The notes below the pieces were generated by a model, which saw only the letters and a list, made by a program, of their open reading frames with translations, did not search any database and was not told where the DNA came from. 64,000 bases of DNA from positions 496,001 through 560,000 of the forward strand of contig JAOZFT010000004.1 in the NCBI GenBank assembly GCA_027492035.1. The letters run 5' to 3'. The translations under genes were made by a program, and so were the position numbers. Source of the DNA: Thermoproteota archaeon (GTDB taxonomy: Archaea > Korarchaeota > JAOZGF01 > JAOZFZ01). Shown piece by piece: positions 35,620 through 43,414 of this stretch (position 1 is its first letter; each line of letters starts with the position of its first letter).

Positions 35620-36222
35620 TTAAATGCTTCCCCAAACTTGTTTGAAATACTCCTCTTCAATTTCTCCTACTTTTTTACTTATGAGTAAAAGGCTTGCCTC
35701 ATGGTTCCTAGTCATTGCGTAATAACTAAAATTATGGGAACCTACAATTACAATATACCCGTCAATTATTATTAGTTTATCATGTGTAATTTTTGATTTT
35801 TCATCCCACTTTACATTTACCCCCTCCTTTTCTAACCAATTGTAAGTGTCTTTATTTGGAGCGACAGACCCCTCAAGTATCACTTTAACATCCAACCCCT
35901 CTTCTGATTTATTAATTAAGTACCCAGCCACTATATCTGGTGGTCTTTCAGGGGGTCCAGCTTCGTTGTATGTCTTAAATTCGTAAATAATTATGTGTAT
36001 GGACTTGTTTGCTTTGGAAAGCCAATGTGTTAAATTCAAGAAATAACTTTGGTCATTTAAAACCTTGACTGTAGCGTTTCCGCTGCAGCGTAAGTATTTG
36101 TTTCTGTAACTTAAAGCCTCCTTTTTGAACTCTATAGATTTCTCATAAAAGTAAGCAGTAGTGAACAATAAGAAAAAAACAATCATCAGAAGGAATGAAT
36201 TAAAGGTTTTCCTTCTTGCCAA
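35620..36222 (-). CDS. membrane-anchored or secreted phospholipase-D-type nuclease, single HKD
   Basis: A 200-residue protein with an N-terminal hydrophobic anchor (residues 9-25) and one PLD domain. The HKD motif is ITHDKLIIIDGYIVIVGSHN (His, Lys, Asp and the GSxN loop). One HKD motif and this length match Nuc-type endonucleases that dimerise to build the active site. The anchor places it outside or at the cell surface, where it may degrade DNA. It is next to the deacetylase-family gene with 17 bases between, on the same strand. Confidence 0.85.
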   Translation of the reverse strand: MARRKTFNSFLLMIVFFLLFTTAYFYEKSIEFKKEALSYRNKYLRCSGNATVKVLNDQSYFLNLTHWLSKANKSIHIIIYEFKTYNEAGPPERPPDIVAGYLINKSEEGLDVKVILEGSVAPNKDTYNWLEKEGVNVKWDEKSKITHDKLIIIDGYIVIVGSHNFSYYAMTRNHEASLLLISKKVGEIEEEYFKQVWGSI

Positions 36223-36239: not shown

Positions 36240-37322
36240 TTAAAAGCTCCAGTAATCAGCCAACTTGTTTTTTAATTCATTAAAAACTCTTTCAGCTTTA
36301 TTTAAAACATTTTCAGAAGAAAAAGTTTCCTTTTCAGGAACATTGTAAGGTATGTCTGCCATCACTGACACAGAAGCAAGTAAAGAAGATTTTAAACCTT
36401 TACCGTAACCTCCCTCCAGAGTAGCTGCAAATCTTCCGCTACATTTCTCAACTGCTATTTCCAAACCTTTCTTAAAAGCTAGTTTGTAACCATTCGCTGA
36501 CAAATTCATGTCTGTTATTGGATCAGCTTTATGTGCGTCAAAACCTGCAGAAACAAGTACAAATTGGGGTGAAAACTGTTCAGCAACTGGCAAAATTATT
36601 TCCTCTAAGGCCCTCTCATAAACATCATCTCCTGTCTTTGGTGGGAGAGGTATGTTTATGTTGAATCCCTCCCCCTCATTGGACCCTATTTCGTCTGTGA
36701 AGCCTGTGCCGGGGTAAAGGGTTCTTGGATCTTGGTGAAGACTTATGAATAGAACATCTGGTCGATTATAGAATATTTCCTCGGTTCCATTACCGTGGTG
36801 GCAGTCCACATCCAAAATTAAAACCCTTTTAATTCCTCTATTCCTCACTAAATTCTCAGCAGCTATTGCAATGTTGTTAAATACGCAGAAACCGGCTGTA
36901 GGGGCGTGTAAAGCCTTTCCATTAAAGCCTGCATGATGACCTGGTGGCCTAACTAAAGCAAAACCATTTAAGAACTTCTTTTTCAATATTAAATCCGTTA
37001 ACCCAGTCAATCCCCCTGCTGCATATAATGCAGCTTCAAAACTTCCTGGAGAGACAGGAGTGTCACCGTCAAGATATCCTCCTCTTTCTGTCGTAAATTT
37101 TACAAATTCTACGTAATCTTCCTCATGTACAAGAAGAATATCTTTTAAAGAAGCCTTTTCAGGTTTTTGTAAAGTGCACCCTTTCTCAAAAAAATTTTGG
37201 CTTCCTAATGCATCTAAAGCGTCTATGAGCCTCTTTGGTGATTCAGGGTGAAATGAGCCTGTCTCATGTTTCAGGTAAATTTCATCATAAACTATAGCTG
37301 TTTTTTCCATGTTTAAAAACAC
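36240..37322 (-). CDS. histone-deacetylase/acetylpolyamine-amidohydrolase family protein
   Basis: A 360-residue arginase-fold deacetylase. The signature is RPPGHHAGFNGKALHAPTAG (the His-His charge relay), followed by ILDVDCHHGNGTEEIFY with zinc ligands Asp and His, and FVLVSAGFDAHKADP carrying the third zinc Asp; the final ALEGGYG holds the substrate-binding Tyr. Archaeal and bacterial relatives deacetylate small acetylated amines or proteins, so acetyl-CoA synthetase (AcuC-like) or polyamines are candidate substrates. Two starts are possible, GTG at 37322 and ATG at 37310; neither has a clear ribosome-binding site. Confidence 0.9.
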   Translation of the reverse strand: MFLNMEKTAIVYDEIYLKHETGSFHPESPKRLIDALDALGSQNFFEKGCTLQKPEKASLKDILLVHEEDYVEFVKFTTERGGYLDGDTPVSPGSFEAALYAAGGLTGLTDLILKKKFLNGFALVRPPGHHAGFNGKALHAPTAGFCVFNNIAIAAENLVRNRGIKRVLILDVDCHHGNGTEEIFYNRPDVLFISLHQDPRTLYPGTGFTDEIGSNEGEGFNINIPLPPKTGDDVYERALEEIILPVAEQFSPQFVLVSAGFDAHKADPITDMNLSANGYKLAFKKGLEIAVEKCSGRFAATLEGGYGKGLKSSLLASVSVMADIPYNVPEKETFSSENVLNKAERVFNELKNKLADYWSF

Positions 37323-37523: not shown

Positions 37524-38510
37524 TTAAGGTATTCTCTCCTCTATAACTGAGCCGGTTAATGCAGGCTGGGTTTCATAAACAGGATAATTTAAACTTTTTA
37601 TTCTTTCTAAAACATATTCTTTATTCTTAGGGTCTGTTAATATAAGTACACATCCTCCTCCGCCCCCTCCCGTTAATTTAGCACCTAAGGCACCTACTTT
37701 AGAAGCTGTTTGAACTATTTCGTCAAGTTCTTTCGTGGAAACCCCTATCGACGAAAGTAAACCGTGACTGATAAACATTAACTCACCTAGTTTGCTCCAG
37801 TCTCTTTTCTTTAAAGCTTTCTCACCTTGTAAAGTTGTTTCTTCAATTGCTTCCATTACCTTACCAATTATTTCAGTGTTTCTTTCAAACCTCTCCCTTA
37901 CTTTCCTAATCATTTCTTTTGTTGAGGTTTTCTTCTTTGTCCAAGCTATCAGTAAAGGCATATCTACCCCTTCCTCCAATTTTTTTGTCTCCATTACGTC
38001 CCCGCTCCAAAAAACTTTCACTAATCCGCCATATACTGCACACGCTGGCCCTGTTTTTGAGGCTTTTCCATGAATTTTCTCCTCCACTTCATAAACCCTC
38101 TCCAGTAACTCTTTATTTCTTAGTTCTTTCCCGGTTATGGCTGAAACAGCTTTAAAAATACTTGCAGAAACTGAGGCAGAGCTAGCCATTCCACTACCTA
38201 CAGGCACCTCTGAGGTTATTTTCAAGTTTAGCCCTTTCTTGTACCCTGTTTCATCCAAAAACTTAAGCAATGGGTTTATAAAAACCTTTAAGTCTTTTAA
38301 ACCCTTTATTTCAACTTCTCCATTTCTTTCGTTCGCTTCAATAAATCCTTTAAAATTAACTGAGTAAATTCTTACTTTCTTTTCACTTATTTCTTCAGCT
38401 TCTACTTTAGACCTAATATTTACGCTACAAGCTAAAGCTGGTTTTCTATAAAGTACGGCGTGTTCACCGAAAAGAAAAGCTTGAGAAGGTGAAGAAGCTA
38501 CAACCTTCAT
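37524..38510 (-). CDS. mevalonate kinase homologue with altered active site
   Basis: A 328-residue GHMP kinase that otherwise follows mevalonate kinase: FLFGEHAVLYRKPALA at the N-terminus, ATP loop VPVGSGMASSASVSAS near residue 103 and the C-terminal GALGAKLTGGGGGGCV. Two catalytic residues of the family are changed. The Lys of the PSK/PGK motif (Lys8 in Methanocaldococcus) is Gln10 in SSPSQAFLF, and the catalytic Asp (Asp155 there) is Gly154 in GKASKTGPACAV. Both changes are clear in the DNA (CAA and GGG codons). The protein may use another substrate, transfer phosphate without the Asp base, or act without catalysis. It is divergent from the ModE-like gene with an AT-rich gap. Confidence 0.85.
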   Translation of the reverse strand: MKVVASSPSQAFLFGEHAVLYRKPALACSVNIRSKVEAEEISEKKVRIYSVNFKGFIEANERNGEVEIKGLKDLKVFINPLLKFLDETGYKKGLNLKITSEVPVGSGMASSASVSASIFKAVSAITGKELRNKELLERVYEVEEKIHGKASKTGPACAVYGGLVKVFWSGDVMETKKLEEGVDMPLLIAWTKKKTSTKEMIRKVRERFERNTEIIGKVMEAIEETTLQGEKALKKRDWSKLGELMFISHGLLSSIGVSTKELDEIVQTASKVGALGAKLTGGGGGGCVLILTDPKNKEYVLERIKSLNYPVYETQPALTGSVIEERIP

Positions 38511-38583: not shown

Positions 38584-39138
38584 ATGAGTCTAAAAAATAT
38601 TAAAATAAAATTTAAAGTTTGGCTTGAGTACGAAGGTGAAGCAGTGCTTGGGAAGGGGGGAGCTTCGTTGCTTAACGCTGTTAAAAAATACAGAAACTTG
38701 GTGAAAGCCGCTAAATATACAGGGATGTCTTACCGTAAGGCATGGTTTTACCTTAAAAGAATGGCTGAAGTACTCCATGAACCTGTGGTTGAAACACGTC
38801 ACGGAGGGTCGGGAGGGGGTGGTGAAACTAAACTTACTGCATTGGGTGAATTTATTCTTCAAAAATATCAGAAATTTGAGAGTTTCATAAAATACGCTTT
38901 AAAGAATTCTTTTCTGTGGACAGGTGTAAGTTTGAGAAGCGAAAAAGTAAACGTTGTTGAGGGTGAAGTTTCTTTTGTGAAAGAGGGGAAGGATGCTGTG
39001 ATGGTTGAGGTGGAGACAAAGTCCCCTGTAACAATTTCATCAATTATAACTGTTGAAGCTGTTGAAGAATTAAAGTTGGAAGTGGGCAGTGAAGTCCAGG
39101 CTTTCTTGAAAGCTACTGAGGTGAACATTACAACTTGA
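38584..39138 (+). CDS. ModE-type regulator: LysR-like HTH plus Mop/TOBE domain
   Basis: A 184-residue regulator. Residues about 1-100 carry the ModE winged helix (LVKAAKYTGMSYRKAWFYLK and HGGSGGGGETKLTALG with the family's glycine-rich wing). Residues about 115-184 form one Mop/TOBE oxyanion-binding domain, ending VEELKLEVGSEVQAFLKATE. ModE binds molybdate or tungstate and controls uptake and cofactor genes, consistent with the moa and aldehyde oxidoreductase genes that follow. The bacterial form has two Mop domains; the second may be supplied by the next gene. The stop overlaps the next start as TTGA. Confidence 0.88.
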   Translation: MSLKNIKIKFKVWLEYEGEAVLGKGGASLLNAVKKYRNLVKAAKYTGMSYRKAWFYLKRMAEVLHEPVVETRHGGSGGGGETKLTALGEFILQKYQKFESFIKYALKNSFLWTGVSLRSEKVNVVEGEVSFVKEGKDAVMVEVETKSPVTISSIITVEAVEELKLEVGSEVQAFLKATEVNITT

Positions 39139-39350
39139 AAGATAGAAAAGTTAGTGCAAGAAACATATTCAATGTAAAGGTAAAAAATATTGAAAAAGGG
39201 GATAACTTGGCTTTAGTAACCTTAAAAACAAAGGAAAAAATTAAAATAAGAGCTTTAATCGACTCCGAAGCCTTTAAAACATTTATTTTAGAGAAAGGTC
39301 AGAAAGTAAAAGTTGTTTTTAAAGCAACTGAAGTTCTTCTTCAATCTTAA
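39135..39350 (+). CDS. molbindin-like Mop/TOBE protein
   Basis: A 71-residue single Mop domain: SARNIFNVKVKNIEKGDNLA is the conserved first half and ILEKGQKVKVVFKATEVLL the second. Such molbindins assemble into rings that store or buffer molybdate or tungstate. The TTG start overlaps the ModE-like stop (TTGA), so the two are made together; the pair looks like a split two-Mop ModE. It converges on moaE. Confidence 0.88.
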   Translation: MKDRKVSARNIFNVKVKNIEKGDNLALVTLKTKEKIKIRALIDSEAFKTFILEKGQKVKVVFKATEVLLQS

Positions 39351-39375
39351 TTTCTTCAAAATTTCCTTTACGACA

Positions 39376-39858
39376 TTAAGCCACTTTCTCAAGCTCTATT
39401 TTTCCCTTTACTTCAGAAACCCAGTATTCTCCTTTCTCAGTTGTTTCTTTCTTCCATATTGGGGTTTCGTTCTTTATTTCGTCAATTATTTCTTCAGCCA
39501 CTTTGAAAGCCTCTTTCCTACATTCAGCCGCAACCAGTATATAAACTATGTCTTCACCGGGGGATAAATCATCTACAACATGTGTAATAAGTATTTCTTT
39601 CACTCCGTTCCTTAAATGTTTCTTCCTTATTTCTTCCAAGCTTTTACTGGCTGACTCCCTATCTGTCTCATAATGGATGCTTTTTAATGGTGAACCATCA
39701 TGTCCAATTCCTCTTACAACCCCCAAAAAAATAACTACTGCTCCACATTTCTTGAAATCTTCCCCCCTTTTTATTTTGTTAAATAGAAGGGTTAAGTTAA
39801 CTTCACCCTTCTTAACTACCTTAACTTTCTCCTCTATTCCTCCATTACCCTTACTCAT
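39376..39858 (-). CDS. moaE: molybdopterin synthase large subunit MoaE
   Basis: MoaE uses thiocarboxylated MoaD to put the dithiolene sulfurs into precursor Z. In the 160 residues CGAVVIFLGVVRGIGHDG is the conserved dimer/active region, IHYETDRES and HVVDDLSPGEDIVYILVAA follow, and the active-site Lys is in ETPIWKKETTEKGEYWV. It lacks a fused MoaD; the sulfur carrier at 16.9 kb is a likely partner. Its start overlaps moaC by eight bases. Confidence 0.94.
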   Translation of the reverse strand: MSKGNGGIEEKVKVVKKGEVNLTLLFNKIKRGEDFKKCGAVVIFLGVVRGIGHDGSPLKSIHYETDRESASKSLEEIRKKHLRNGVKEILITHVVDDLSPGEDIVYILVAAECRKEAFKVAEEIIDEIKNETPIWKKETTEKGEYWVSEVKGKIELEKVA

Positions 39859-40312
39859 CTTTCTCTTGCTCTCTCTTAATTTTACTTAAAACTCTTAAAT
39901 TAGTTATTCTGGTTTCAGGGTATTGTCCCTTTTCATCTTTCTCGTACTTTTTCACCATATCCCAGACGGTGAGCAAACCGATTGAGACGCCTACTAGGGC
40001 TTCCATTTCAACACCTGTTTTCGCTACGCCTTTAACCCTAACTTTAACAATTACTTCCTTATCTTCCACCTCCACTTCTGTATGGACGTTTGTCACGGGG
40101 ATCGGGTGGCAGAGAGGAATAAGTTCAGGTGTTTTCTTAACTGCTAAAATAGAAGCTATCTGAACCGAGGACTTTATATTTCCCTTCTCCACTTTCCTAG
40201 ATTTTATTCTTTCAATTGTTTCTTTTTTCAGCCTTATCCTTCCCGTTGCCTCTGCTTCACGGTAAATTTCCTTTTTAGAACTTATGTCAACCATTCTTAC
40301 TTCCTCAATCAA
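39851..40312 (-). CDS. moaC: cyclic pyranopterin monophosphate synthase MoaC
   Basis: A 153-residue enzyme that makes cyclic pyranopterin phosphate from the MoaA product. Conserved elements are MVDISSKKEIYREAEATG, IPLCHPIPVTNVH, TGVEMEALVGVSIGLLTVWD and DMVKKYEKD with the catalytic Lys. It sits between moaA (28 bases upstream) and moaE (overlap). Start: TTG at 40312 with GAGAGGTG before it, or the ATG six codons later behind GAGGAAG; both are plausible. Confidence 0.95.
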   Translation of the reverse strand: MIEEVRMVDISSKKEIYREAEATGRIRLKKETIERIKSRKVEKGNIKSSVQIASILAVKKTPELIPLCHPIPVTNVHTEVEVEDKEVIVKVRVKGVAKTGVEMEALVGVSIGLLTVWDMVKKYEKDEKGQYPETRITNLRVLSKIKREQEKDE

Positions 40313-40340
40313 CTTAAAAACACCTCTCCAGTAACTTCCT

Positions 40341-41282
40341 TTATTTAAAGAATGGTTCTCTCCTACTTACTGCTTTTAAAAAAATCATTTTAACCCTTTC
40401 TGTATCTCCTCTCCTTAATTCGTCAATAAACTTAACGTGGTTGTCGTTTCTCATTAAACAAGGTTTAAAGCTTCCGTCACTCGTAACTCTTATTCTTTTA
40501 CAGTATTTGCAGAAACTTGTGTTATGCATAGGTCTAACAATTTCTACAGTTGCTCCATCAGGTAAATAATATTGCTTCCTGTTCTGCATTTCTCTATTCA
40601 CAACCTTCTCGGCTTTCTTCATTAACTCCATTTCAATTTCTTCCATGTCCCAGTGGTATTTCTTAAAGAATTCATTGTTAACATTTATAGATTGAAGTTC
40701 TATTAGTTGAAGAATCACTCCCATATCATGTGAAAACTTTATTGCTTCCTTTATTTCCTTCTCATTTAATCCTTTCAAAACCACCATGTTCACTTTTACA
40801 GGTTTTAACCCAGCTTCAATAGCTTTTCTTATTCCCCTTTTAACTTTCTCGACATCACTGACTGGGTTAAGGCTTCCAGTTATCACTCCATAAACTTTAG
40901 GATCTAAACTAGGCAAACTGACATTAACTCTATCCAACCCATTCCTTTTCAACTCATAAGCTAATTTTTCCAGCAGTAAACCATTTGACACTAATGAGAC
41001 ATCCTTTACTTCCTTAACCGATTTCACTTCCTTAATTATTTCGCAAATGTCCTTCCTTAACAGAGGCTCCCCTCCCGTTATTTTCACTTTATTTATTCCA
41101 TATCCTGCAGCAATTTTAACTATTTCATGGATTTCCTTGGGTGTCAAGTAAGCGTCTTTTGCGTTTAACTGGTCCCCTTCCATGTGACAGTAGATACAGT
41201 TTAAGTTGCATCTCTTGTTTACTGAAATCCTTATATTTGTTAATGGTCTCCCGTAGGGATCTACTAAAACCAATACCTCCAC
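40341..41282 (-). CDS. moaA: GTP 3',8-cyclase MoaA
   Basis: A 313-residue radical-SAM enzyme starting molybdopterin synthesis from GTP. The first [4Fe-4S] motif is CNLNCIYCHMEGD after NIRISVNKR, the SAM loop is KITGGEPLLR, and the second cluster ligands are FCKYCKRIRVTSDGSFKPCL. The usual C-terminal double glycine is not present; the protein ends in REPFFK, a variation worth noting because the GG tail of many MoaA proteins enters the active site. The GTG start has AAGGAAG just upstream. It is the first gene of the moaA-moaC-moaE operon, divergent from the aldehyde oxidoreductase. Confidence 0.94.
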   Translation of the reverse strand: MEVLVLVDPYGRPLTNIRISVNKRCNLNCIYCHMEGDQLNAKDAYLTPKEIHEIVKIAAGYGINKVKITGGEPLLRKDICEIIKEVKSVKEVKDVSLVSNGLLLEKLAYELKRNGLDRVNVSLPSLDPKVYGVITGSLNPVSDVEKVKRGIRKAIEAGLKPVKVNMVVLKGLNEKEIKEAIKFSHDMGVILQLIELQSINVNNEFFKKYHWDMEEIEMELMKKAEKVVNREMQNRKQYYLPDGATVEIVRPMHNTSFCKYCKRIRVTSDGSFKPCLMRNDNHVKFIDELRRGDTERVKMIFLKAVSRREPFFK

Positions 41283-41506
41283 TTCCTTCTTGTAGAAAAT
41301 TCCAGAGAAACTCGGTTTGTAAGGGACATAATTTATTTGTTACAAAAGCTTATCAAGTCTTTCAAAGCTTATAAAAATTTCTCTAACCTCACATGGAGAG
41401 ATAAGGAAAGACAGAAAATTTATAAAAAAGATTTGATGTGGAACCTAGTTTTAAATTTTCAAGGAAAAGACACAAGTCGAGCTATTGTTTACTTCAGGGA
41501 TTAAAA

Positions 41507-43414
41507 ATGAATTTTAAAGGTTATAAGGGGTCCTTTTTAAAGGTTGATTTATCAAGGGGCAAAGTAATTAAAGAAAATCTTGACAAAAAATTTGCGCAAC
41601 TGTATCTTGGTGGTAGAGGATTTAACTCCAAACTTCTTTTCGACAAAGTTAATCCTGCCATAAAGCCTTTCCACCCAGAGAACTTAATAGTTTTAAGTGT
41701 AGGTCCTCTTACTGGAACATTGGCTCCTACATCAGGTAGGTACCACATTTCAGCCAAGTCTCCCTTGACAGGAATAATGGGGTACGGCAACGCTGGAGGT
41801 TTTTTTGGTTCAGAGCTTAAGTATGCAGGGTTTGATGGTTTACTGATCACTGGAAAATCCAAGAACCCTGTTTACCTCTCTATTTGCGACGGTGAAGCTG
41901 AAATAAGGGATGCATCCTTTATTTGGAGCAGAAACACGTTTGAAACCGAGAAACTGGTCAAGGAAAACTTAAGTGACAAAGAAGTCCGGGTTCTTTCAAT
42001 AGGACAAGCTGGAGAGAACCTTGTCAAGTTCGCAGCAGTAATAAATGACAATTTCAGAGCTGCGGCAAGAACAGGTGTAGGTGCAGTGATGGGTTCAAAA
42101 AAACTTAAAGCAATAGCTGTGAAGGGAACAGGTAAAGTGGAAGTAGCCTACCCTGAAAAATTCATTCAAACAGTTGAAGAAACATTTCAAAAAATTTATG
42201 AGGATCCTGCCTACCCCTCTCTTTCAACTTATGGAACCCCTTTCCTGGTTGACTTGGCTCAAGAAAGCGGGGGTTTAGCAACTAGAAACAATCAAACAGG
42301 AGTATTTGAAAAATATGAAGAAATCTCTTCCCACCTTTTCAGAGAAAAAAATGTTGTTAAGTCTGAAGCTTGCTCCGCTTGCCCTATACACTGCGGTAAA
42401 TACGCTAGTGTCAGGGAAGGAAAATATGCAGGAGTTAAGGGTGGAGGGCCTGAATATGAAACAGTGGTTTGTTTAGGTTCTAAAATAGGAGTTGGAAATC
42501 TTGAGGCAATAATGTACTTCAATTTACTGGCTAACATGTATGGTTTAGATACTATTTCACTAGGTGACTCCATCGCCTTTGCGATGGAACTTTTCGAGAA
42601 AGGAATAATCGACGAAAAAGACACTGAAGGTTTAAAACTTACTTGGGGAAACGAAGAAGCAGTTACTGAATTAATAAAGCAAATAGTTTCTAGGGAAAAA
42701 TTCGGGAATATACTGGCTGAAGGAGTGAAGAAAGCAGCTTCAATAATAGGTAGAGGGGCTGAAAAATATGCCTTACATGTTAAAGGTTTAGAGCCTCCAG
42801 CTTACGAAATAAGAACAGCTAAAGCATTTGGTCTAGGTTGGGCTGTAGCTACAAGAGGGGCTGACCATTTAGCAGCCTTGCCTAATTTTGAACTTCTAGG
42901 GTACCCCCCAGAAGTAGGGATTAAATGGTTTGGTACACCAAAAGTGGTAGATCCCTACGCTATTGAGGGAAAACCCTTAATGGTTGTGTGGCATGAAAAC
43001 TTCGCTGCTGCAATTGATTCAGCTATCCTCTGTAAATACTCCACTTTTTCGACTTACGCAGTGAAACCTAAAGACTTAGCTAACCTTTTAACCTTTTCAA
43101 CAGGTTGGAAATACACTGGAAACTTGGTTTTAGAAATAGGGGAAAGAATCTACAATATTGAGAAACTCTTCAATTTAAGGGAAGGTGTAGGGAAGGAAGA
43201 AGATAAATTGCCTTCCCGTTTCACCCATGAACCCCTTCCTGAAGGACCTGGTAAGGGACAAGTTGTTGAACTTGATGAAATGCTGCCCGAATACTACAAA
43301 ATAAGAGGTTGGAATCCTGAAACAAGCTACCCAACACCTGAAAAACTTCGGCAATTAAAATTAATGAAGGAAGGTAGCTTTCTAAACAAAGAAAGGATGG
43401 AAGTAAAGGAATGA
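41507..43414 (+). CDS. aor: tungsten-containing aldehyde:ferredoxin oxidoreductase
   Basis: About 635 residues of the AOR family, oxidising aldehydes to acids with ferredoxin. GYKGSFLKVDLSRGKV opens it; the pterin-binding region includes YLGGRGFNSKLLFD, GPLTGTLAPTSGRYHISAKS and YAGFDGLLITGKS; the [4Fe-4S] ligands are SEACSACPIHCGKYA with the fourth Cys in SAILCKYSTF near residue 513. The family uses bis-pterin tungsten, which fits the adjacent moa genes and ModE-like regulator. I start at the ATG at 41507 with CAGGGA before it; 23 residues of open frame upstream do not match the family. The ferredoxin gene follows with an ATGA overlap. Confidence 0.95.
   Translation: MNFKGYKGSFLKVDLSRGKVIKENLDKKFAQLYLGGRGFNSKLLFDKVNPAIKPFHPENLIVLSVGPLTGTLAPTSGRYHISAKSPLTGIMGYGNAGGFFGSELKYAGFDGLLITGKSKNPVYLSICDGEAEIRDASFIWSRNTFETEKLVKENLSDKEVRVLSIGQAGENLVKFAAVINDNFRAAARTGVGAVMGSKKLKAIAVKGTGKVEVAYPEKFIQTVEETFQKIYEDPAYPSLSTYGTPFLVDLAQESGGLATRNNQTGVFEKYEEISSHLFREKNVVKSEACSACPIHCGKYASVREGKYAGVKGGGPEYETVVCLGSKIGVGNLEAIMYFNLLANMYGLDTISLGDSIAFAMELFEKGIIDEKDTEGLKLTWGNEEAVTELIKQIVSREKFGNILAEGVKKAASIIGRGAEKYALHVKGLEPPAYEIRTAKAFGLGWAVATRGADHLAALPNFELLGYPPEVGIKWFGTPKVVDPYAIEGKPLMVVWHENFAAAIDSAILCKYSTFSTYAVKPKDLANLLTFSTGWKYTGNLVLEIGERIYNIEKLFNLREGVGKEEDKLPSRFTHEPLPEGPGKGQVVELDEMLPEYYKIRGWNPETSYPTPEKLRQLKLMKEGSFLNKERMEVKE

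Follow-up and report, generated by a model that had tools for sequence, protein, structure and literature searches.

The active site of mevalonate kinase is rearranged throughout the Korarchaeota, a heat-loving archaeal phylum, and this rearrangement is not decay. The gene studied here lies in a 64,000-nucleotide stretch of DNA (the window), taken from contig C9 of a draft genome (1.87 Mb, 42 contigs, 93% complete). Its product, P0001, lacks both the catalytic lysine and the catalytic aspartate, residues described as strictly conserved in the mevalonate kinase literature. The best explanation overall is a working Korarchaeal mevalonate kinase with a rebuilt phosphoryl-transfer site, and we consider it probable. 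It is based on homology, fixation across the phylum, a coupled change in a second lineage, the lack of another candidate GHMP kinase and the flanking pathway families. The Korarchaeal variant is unmentioned in the literature searched, which largely left out subscription journals.

Family assignment and residues of the site

The following features of the gene are used throughout.

37524-38510, minus strand: mevalonate kinase homologue P0001, 328 amino acids, single terminal stop; the Korarchaeal variant
38481-38483, minus strand: Gln10 (CAA), at the catalytic Lys position (alignment with solved mevalonate kinases)
38172-38198, minus strand: ATP-binding loop GSGMASSAS, residues 105-113, including Ser111 (alignment with solved structures)
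38082-38084, minus strand: Glu143, aligned with Glu127 of the M. burtonii enzyme, which binds Mg (alignment; invariant; role from PMC10910542)
38034-38072, minus strand: loop and helix start HGKASKTGPACAV, residues 147-159, invariant in Korarchaeota
38055-38057, minus strand: Lys152 (AAA), new basic residue at -2 from the lost Asp
38049-38051, minus strand: Gly154 (GGG), at the catalytic Asp position (alignment with solved mevalonate kinases)
37650-37688, minus strand: glycine-rich motif 3 LGAKLTGGGGGGC, including Lys278 (Korarchaeal alignment)

The reading frame is intact, with no internal stop in the translation of 37524-38510. P0001 passes the TIGR00549 mevalonate kinase model (240.3 bits, cut-off 163.05), and a domain search finds both the N and C domains of the GHMP superfamily. 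It fails the stricter archaeal model NF003036 (233.9 bits, cut-off 403). We counted this failure against the reading of P0001 as an active mevalonate 5-kinase.

The roles of the residues at the site were taken from PMC10910542 and PMC6283576. P0001 keeps the Mg/ATP residues Glu143 and Ser111, the substrate-side His17 and Ser151, and the lid residue Thr197. However, it has Gln10 instead of the catalytic Lys of motif 1, and Gly154 instead of the catalytic Asp at the helix start after S-G-x-D. Because P0001 fails both of these defining residue tests, we do not claim a classical mevalonate kinase.

An earlier sequence-only reading had called the protein a mevalonate kinase homologue and had named these two replacements. 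The TIGR00549 score, the domains and the fold bear out the first statement. The codons and coordinates of the second are exact: the alignment with M. mazei 6MDE pairs Lys9 with Gln10 and Asp138 with Gly154, and it is gap-free near both sites. That reading had missed the change at -2, a position usually occupied by Gly in mevalonate kinases and here by Lys152. It had also missed the invariant SKTGPACAV loop and the phylum-wide spread of the change. Another Lys/Asp pair in the site was sought in the Korarchaeal alignment and none was found. No acid has been gained in the clade, and Lys152 is the only charged newcomer.

Structural model

We modelled P0001 with AlphaFold2 on the Korarchaeal alignment (ligand-free prediction; pLDDT 90, pTM 0.89). 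The closest folds are the archaeal mevalonate kinases 8TEB, 8TFO, 6MDF and 6MDE, with Z of 38-39 (8TEB: Z 39.3, rmsd 1.8 over 304; 6MDE: Z 38.0). Foldseek agrees that archaeal mevalonate kinases are the best structural matches. The dead GHMP paralogue Gal3p is also among the fold matches.

The enzymes of M. mazei (6MDE, 6MDF, 4HAC), M. burtonii (8TEB) and M. jannaschii (1KKH, 1VIS) match P0001 over the whole length (Z 34-39), at 29-34% identity in the structural alignment. Motifs 1-3, His17, Ser111, Glu143, Ser151, Thr197 and Lys278 are shared with them. In contrast, the M. mazei residues Lys9, Asp138 and the one at -2 correspond to Gln10, Gly154 and Lys152 of P0001. The Korarchaeal proteins also differ in having an invariant KTGPACAV and Trp168. 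In the model, a helix starts at residue 153. The corresponding helix of the M. burtonii kinase carries the catalytic Asp at its N-terminus (PMC10910542), so Lys152 directly precedes the helix.

Conservation across Korarchaeota

A match to the variant gene is present in 26 of the 29 Korarchaeal genomes, and the three genomes with no match are 66-78% complete. All 26 readable genes encode Lys152-Thr153-Gly154-Pro155. Likewise, Gln10 is found wherever the N-terminus is readable (23/23). The sequence-only reading had proposed checking the clade for Gln and Gly, and the check gave zero exceptions. The loop SKTGPACAV does not vary. The invariant residues of this region are H147, G148, A150, S151, K152, T153, G154, P155, A156, C157, A158 and V159. 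His17, Ser111, Glu143, Ser151, Thr197 and Lys278 are invariant in the alignment as well.

The aligned homologues share 39-51% identity with P0001 over the whole protein. The variant residues are fixed despite this divergence, which indicates strong constraint and not recent descent. The claim that the change is not decay thus holds, given the intact frame and the fixation in all readable Korarchaeal genes. A sequencing error, frameshift or recent decay has a negligible probability. Nothing was found in its favour, although the 42-contig assembly is a draft. Against it, the same residues occur in 26/26 readable genes from independent assemblies, in genomes at 39-51% identity, and this excludes a sequencing error.

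Based on the alignment, we scanned 84,980 prokaryote species for the peptides KTGPACAV and PSQAFLxGE. This gave 20 loci. Two of them are labelled Candidatus Methanodesulfokora, which we take to be a korarchaeote, and the others Thermoproteota, Crenarchaeota or uncultured archaeon. The name Korarchaeota used here for the phylum is based on the two Methanodesulfokora labels. The scan found no exact motif outside Korarchaeota (looser variants could escape an exact-peptide scan). PSQAFL...SKTGPACAV is a compact Korarchaeota marker.

A second lineage with the aspartate replaced by glycine

Outside Korarchaeota, we surveyed the mevalonate kinase homologues of about 100 other archaeal genomes. Among 106 non-variant rows of the alignment (a few are repeats), Lys occupies its site in 94 and Asp in 97. 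Glu replaces Asp in eight, mostly alongside Asn replacing Lys. A divergent group of six loci (L075, L081, L134, L146, L150 and L162) has the loop G-G-x-A-S-G-x-E, with Asn or Ser for the catalytic Lys, Glu for Asp and a Gly inserted before the loop.

Gly for Asp occurs in only one lineage beyond Korarchaeota. It consists of four archaeal genomes of one family (G042, G061, G062 and G063).

L071, 120-1088, minus strand, and L083-L086: loci of the second lineage

This lineage has in common with Korarchaeota the loss of the N-terminal Lys, the change of Gly at -2 to a basic residue (here Arg or Lys) and the change of Asp to Gly. It differs in detail: the Lys is replaced by Ala instead of Gln, and the loop is SRAGVSVAT instead of SKTGPACAV. 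Ser111 is invariant in both lineages. The second-lineage protein scores as a mevalonate kinase with TIGR00549 (227.6 bits) and fails NF003036 (274.4 bits, cut-off 403). No further mevalonate kinase was found in the four genomes, where the variant is the sole mevalonate-kinase-type gene found. The other GHMP genes checked there belong to the shikimate kinase, beta-RFAP synthase, heptose kinase and pantoate kinase families.

The Asp-to-Gly change is paired with a basic residue at -2 in 50/50 rows, compared with 3/106 other rows; these 50 rows are not independent, because Korarchaeal genes from two collections are partly counted twice, and they represent at most two origins. In no row does the change occur together with a retained N-terminal Lys. 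In trees built without the variant columns, the two lineages lie apart in 200/200 bootstrap trees checked. A constraint placing them in one clade is nevertheless not rejected (p-AU 0.19; 0.80 on a larger quick tree).

Other GHMP kinases in Korarchaeal genomes

The sequence-only reading had asked for a second mevalonate kinase in the genome. None was found there, and searches of 29 Korarchaeal genomes gave no second mevalonate kinase, mevalonate 3-kinase, phosphomevalonate kinase or decarboxylase of the GHMP superfamily. The GHMP_kinases_N search gives four genes in the window's genome, including P0001. By sequence, we take the other three to be homoserine kinase (ThrB, L001), archaeal shikimate kinase and beta-RFAP synthase. 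The usual number per Korarchaeal genome is two to four, and the single-contig genome G004 has three.

The MVD-like_N search of Korarchaeota returned only cross-matches to such GHMP loci. It gave no bisphosphomevalonate decarboxylase-type gene, and no Thermoplasma-type mevalonate 3-kinase or partners of it. P0001 fails the MVD-like N-terminal domain PF22700 (21 bits, cut-off 27). In some of the other Korarchaeal copies, a short stretch scores 27-31 bits.

Pantoate kinase was rejected as the function of P0001. Its score with the curated pantoate kinase model is 13.2 bits (cut-off 380), and a separate GHMP gene adjoins phosphopantothenate synthetase. The synthetase is present in 2/29 Korarchaeal genomes, each with this adjoining extra GHMP gene (G001:C215, G020:C15) in addition to the variant kinase. 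The extra gene is presumably the pantoate kinase. The search gave no synthetase in the window's genome, and its presence in only two of the 29 suggests that most Korarchaeota are without the archaeal route to coenzyme A.

Isoprenoid pathway and gene neighbourhood

HMG-CoA reductase is present in 24/29 Korarchaeal genomes, and isopentenyl phosphate kinase exceeds its curated cut-off in 23/29. AcnX (phosphomevalonate dehydratase type) is found in 25/29 and a UbiD-type decarboxylase in 29/29, as family-level matches to two broad families. The Korarchaeal AcnX proteins have no curated-level match to any NCBIfam equivalog. Because both families are broad, we infer the pathway roles of these copies. 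The AcnX protein of the archaeal pathway, phosphomevalonate dehydratase, uses mevalonate 5-phosphate as its substrate (PMC10040528, PMC9254496, PMC11052028). The set of four families implies a need for mevalonate 5-phosphate, and the P0001-type kinase is the only candidate found for making it.

In the Korarchaeal AcnX proteins, one chain carries both subunit domains, the small one (DUF126) fused ahead of the large one (L187, 3016-4464, minus strand; L188, 3590-5011, minus strand). The window's genome has a fused copy plus a separate two-gene copy (L192, 3615-4829 and 4813-5262, plus strand).

The genes around P0001 in the window are as follows.

35620-36222, minus strand: PLD-like protein, downstream of the kinase
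36240-37322, minus strand: histone-deacetylase-family protein, downstream of the kinase
38584-43414: TOBE-domain protein (ModE-like), MoaE, MoaC and MoaA, beside aldehyde:ferredoxin oxidoreductase

The histone-deacetylase-family and PLD-like genes are not kept beside the kinase in other Korarchaeota. MoaE and other genes are its neighbours in close relatives of the window, and a MoaE-like gene still adjoins it in the close relative L035. In many Korarchaeota (L035-L054), the kinase gene runs straight into threonyl-tRNA synthetase, with inositol-phosphate synthase and nicotinate phosphoribosyltransferase nearby. The neighbourhood is a weak clue to function, because inositol-phosphate synthase is the only neighbour that touches lipids.

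Proposed mechanism

We hold with good confidence that P0001 is an active mevalonate 5-kinase. The variant kinase would supply mevalonate 5-phosphate to the archaeal (phosphomevalonate dehydratase) pathway, from which the phylum would obtain the units of its membrane lipids. For its mechanism, we propose, as the simplest solution, a base-free transfer with Lys152 as the replacement charge, a proposal whose chances we regard as even.

With the Lys/Asp pair gone, Lys152 would be placed at the mouth of the helix that formerly held the Asp. The positive charge once on strand 1 would now lie at the helix mouth. Lys152 would carry it in place of the former Lys10, and Gln10 would occupy the vacated position. 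Most likely no side chain would act as a base, and the C5 hydroxyl would attack the gamma-phosphate directly. The proton may be taken up by phosphate or water, a route already suggested for homoserine kinase. Lys152, the helix N-terminus, Gln10 and the Mg bound by Glu143 and Ser111 would orient and neutralise the gamma-phosphate.

Previous works bear on this proposal from both sides. In human mevalonate kinase, kcat drops by a factor of more than 40,000 when the Asp is mutated, and 56-fold in the Lys-to-Met mutant (PMC6283576). From these losses, a double loss of Lys and Asp would normally mean a dead enzyme, and we counted this against activity. On the other hand, the Asp of known mevalonate kinases lies more than 5 Å from the C5 hydroxyl and its role as a base rests on mutants; direct transfer as in homoserine kinase "cannot be ruled out" for mevalonate kinase (PMC6283576). 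Homoserine kinase, of the same superfamily, resembles the variant in having no ionisable residue at the Asp position, and direct transfer has been proposed for it (PMC6283576). It differs in substrate and family, and ThrB is encoded separately in the window's genome (L001). The mevalonate 3-kinase of Thermoplasma is likewise a mevalonate kinase of the superfamily without a catalytic Asp (PMC9254496). However, the Asp missing there is that of the decarboxylase, another residue, and the enzyme derives from the decarboxylase branch.

Alternative explanations

The main rival to the base-free step is an active mevalonate 5-kinase with a replaced base, namely Cys157, Thr153 or an ordered water held by Ser151. 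Cys157 lies one helical turn past position 154. Both Cys157 and Thr153 are invariant in Korarchaeota, Cys is present in only 1/106 other rows, and earlier work suggested deprotonation through water for the archaeal enzyme (PMC6283576). However, positions 157 and 153 are Val and Ala in the second lineage. Neither Cys157 nor Thr153 can thus be a solution common to both lineages, and we regard a replaced base as unlikely. The sequence-only reading offered two possibilities, a changed mechanism or substrate on one side and a regulator on the other, and the changed mechanism is the better supported. Another hydroxy acid (pantoate, for example), or the 3-OH of mevalonate, might be thought of, as Lys and Asp adjoin the phosphorylated hydroxyl and a search for pantoate kinase-like genes gave nothing in most Korarchaeal genomes. 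But the pathway requiring mevalonate 5-phosphate is present, and where phosphopantothenate synthetase occurs pantoate has its own kinase-like gene besides the variant; no synthetase was detected in the remaining genomes. Mevalonate 3-phosphate would lead nowhere, since no bisphosphomevalonate decarboxylase-type gene was found. We regard a new substrate or regiochemistry as quite unlikely.

The regulator of the sequence-only reading would leave mevalonate to be phosphorylated by another enzyme. Here P0001 would be a dead homologue that binds ATP and mevalonate and serves as a regulator or scaffold, much like Gal3p in relation to galactokinase, and an unrelated, unrecognised kinase would do the work. 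In favour of this, P0001 has lost both residues of importance in the human enzyme, and dead paralogues are known among GHMP proteins, with Gal3p itself among the fold matches. Yet a dead paralogue is normally accompanied by a live one, and the search of 29 Korarchaeal genomes gave no other mevalonate-type kinase. The regulator would need an unknown kinase in every one of them. Moreover, all other catalytic residues, including those binding ATP, Mg and substrate, are invariant. For these reasons a regulator is disfavoured as improbable.

Implications

Tentatively, we suggest that a whole phylum has a base-free mevalonate kinase, which probably arose independently in a second archaeal lineage, and that the general-base step is dispensable. 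Whether Asp acts as a base or phosphate is transferred directly in mevalonate kinase is debated. The Korarchaeal enzyme is a natural test of this question with one protein, because the phylum lives with Gly at the Asp site and without another candidate kinase. It is also a caution against declaring GHMP homologues dead on motif loss alone. If the proposal is true, the textbook general-base step would not be required for mevalonate phosphorylation.
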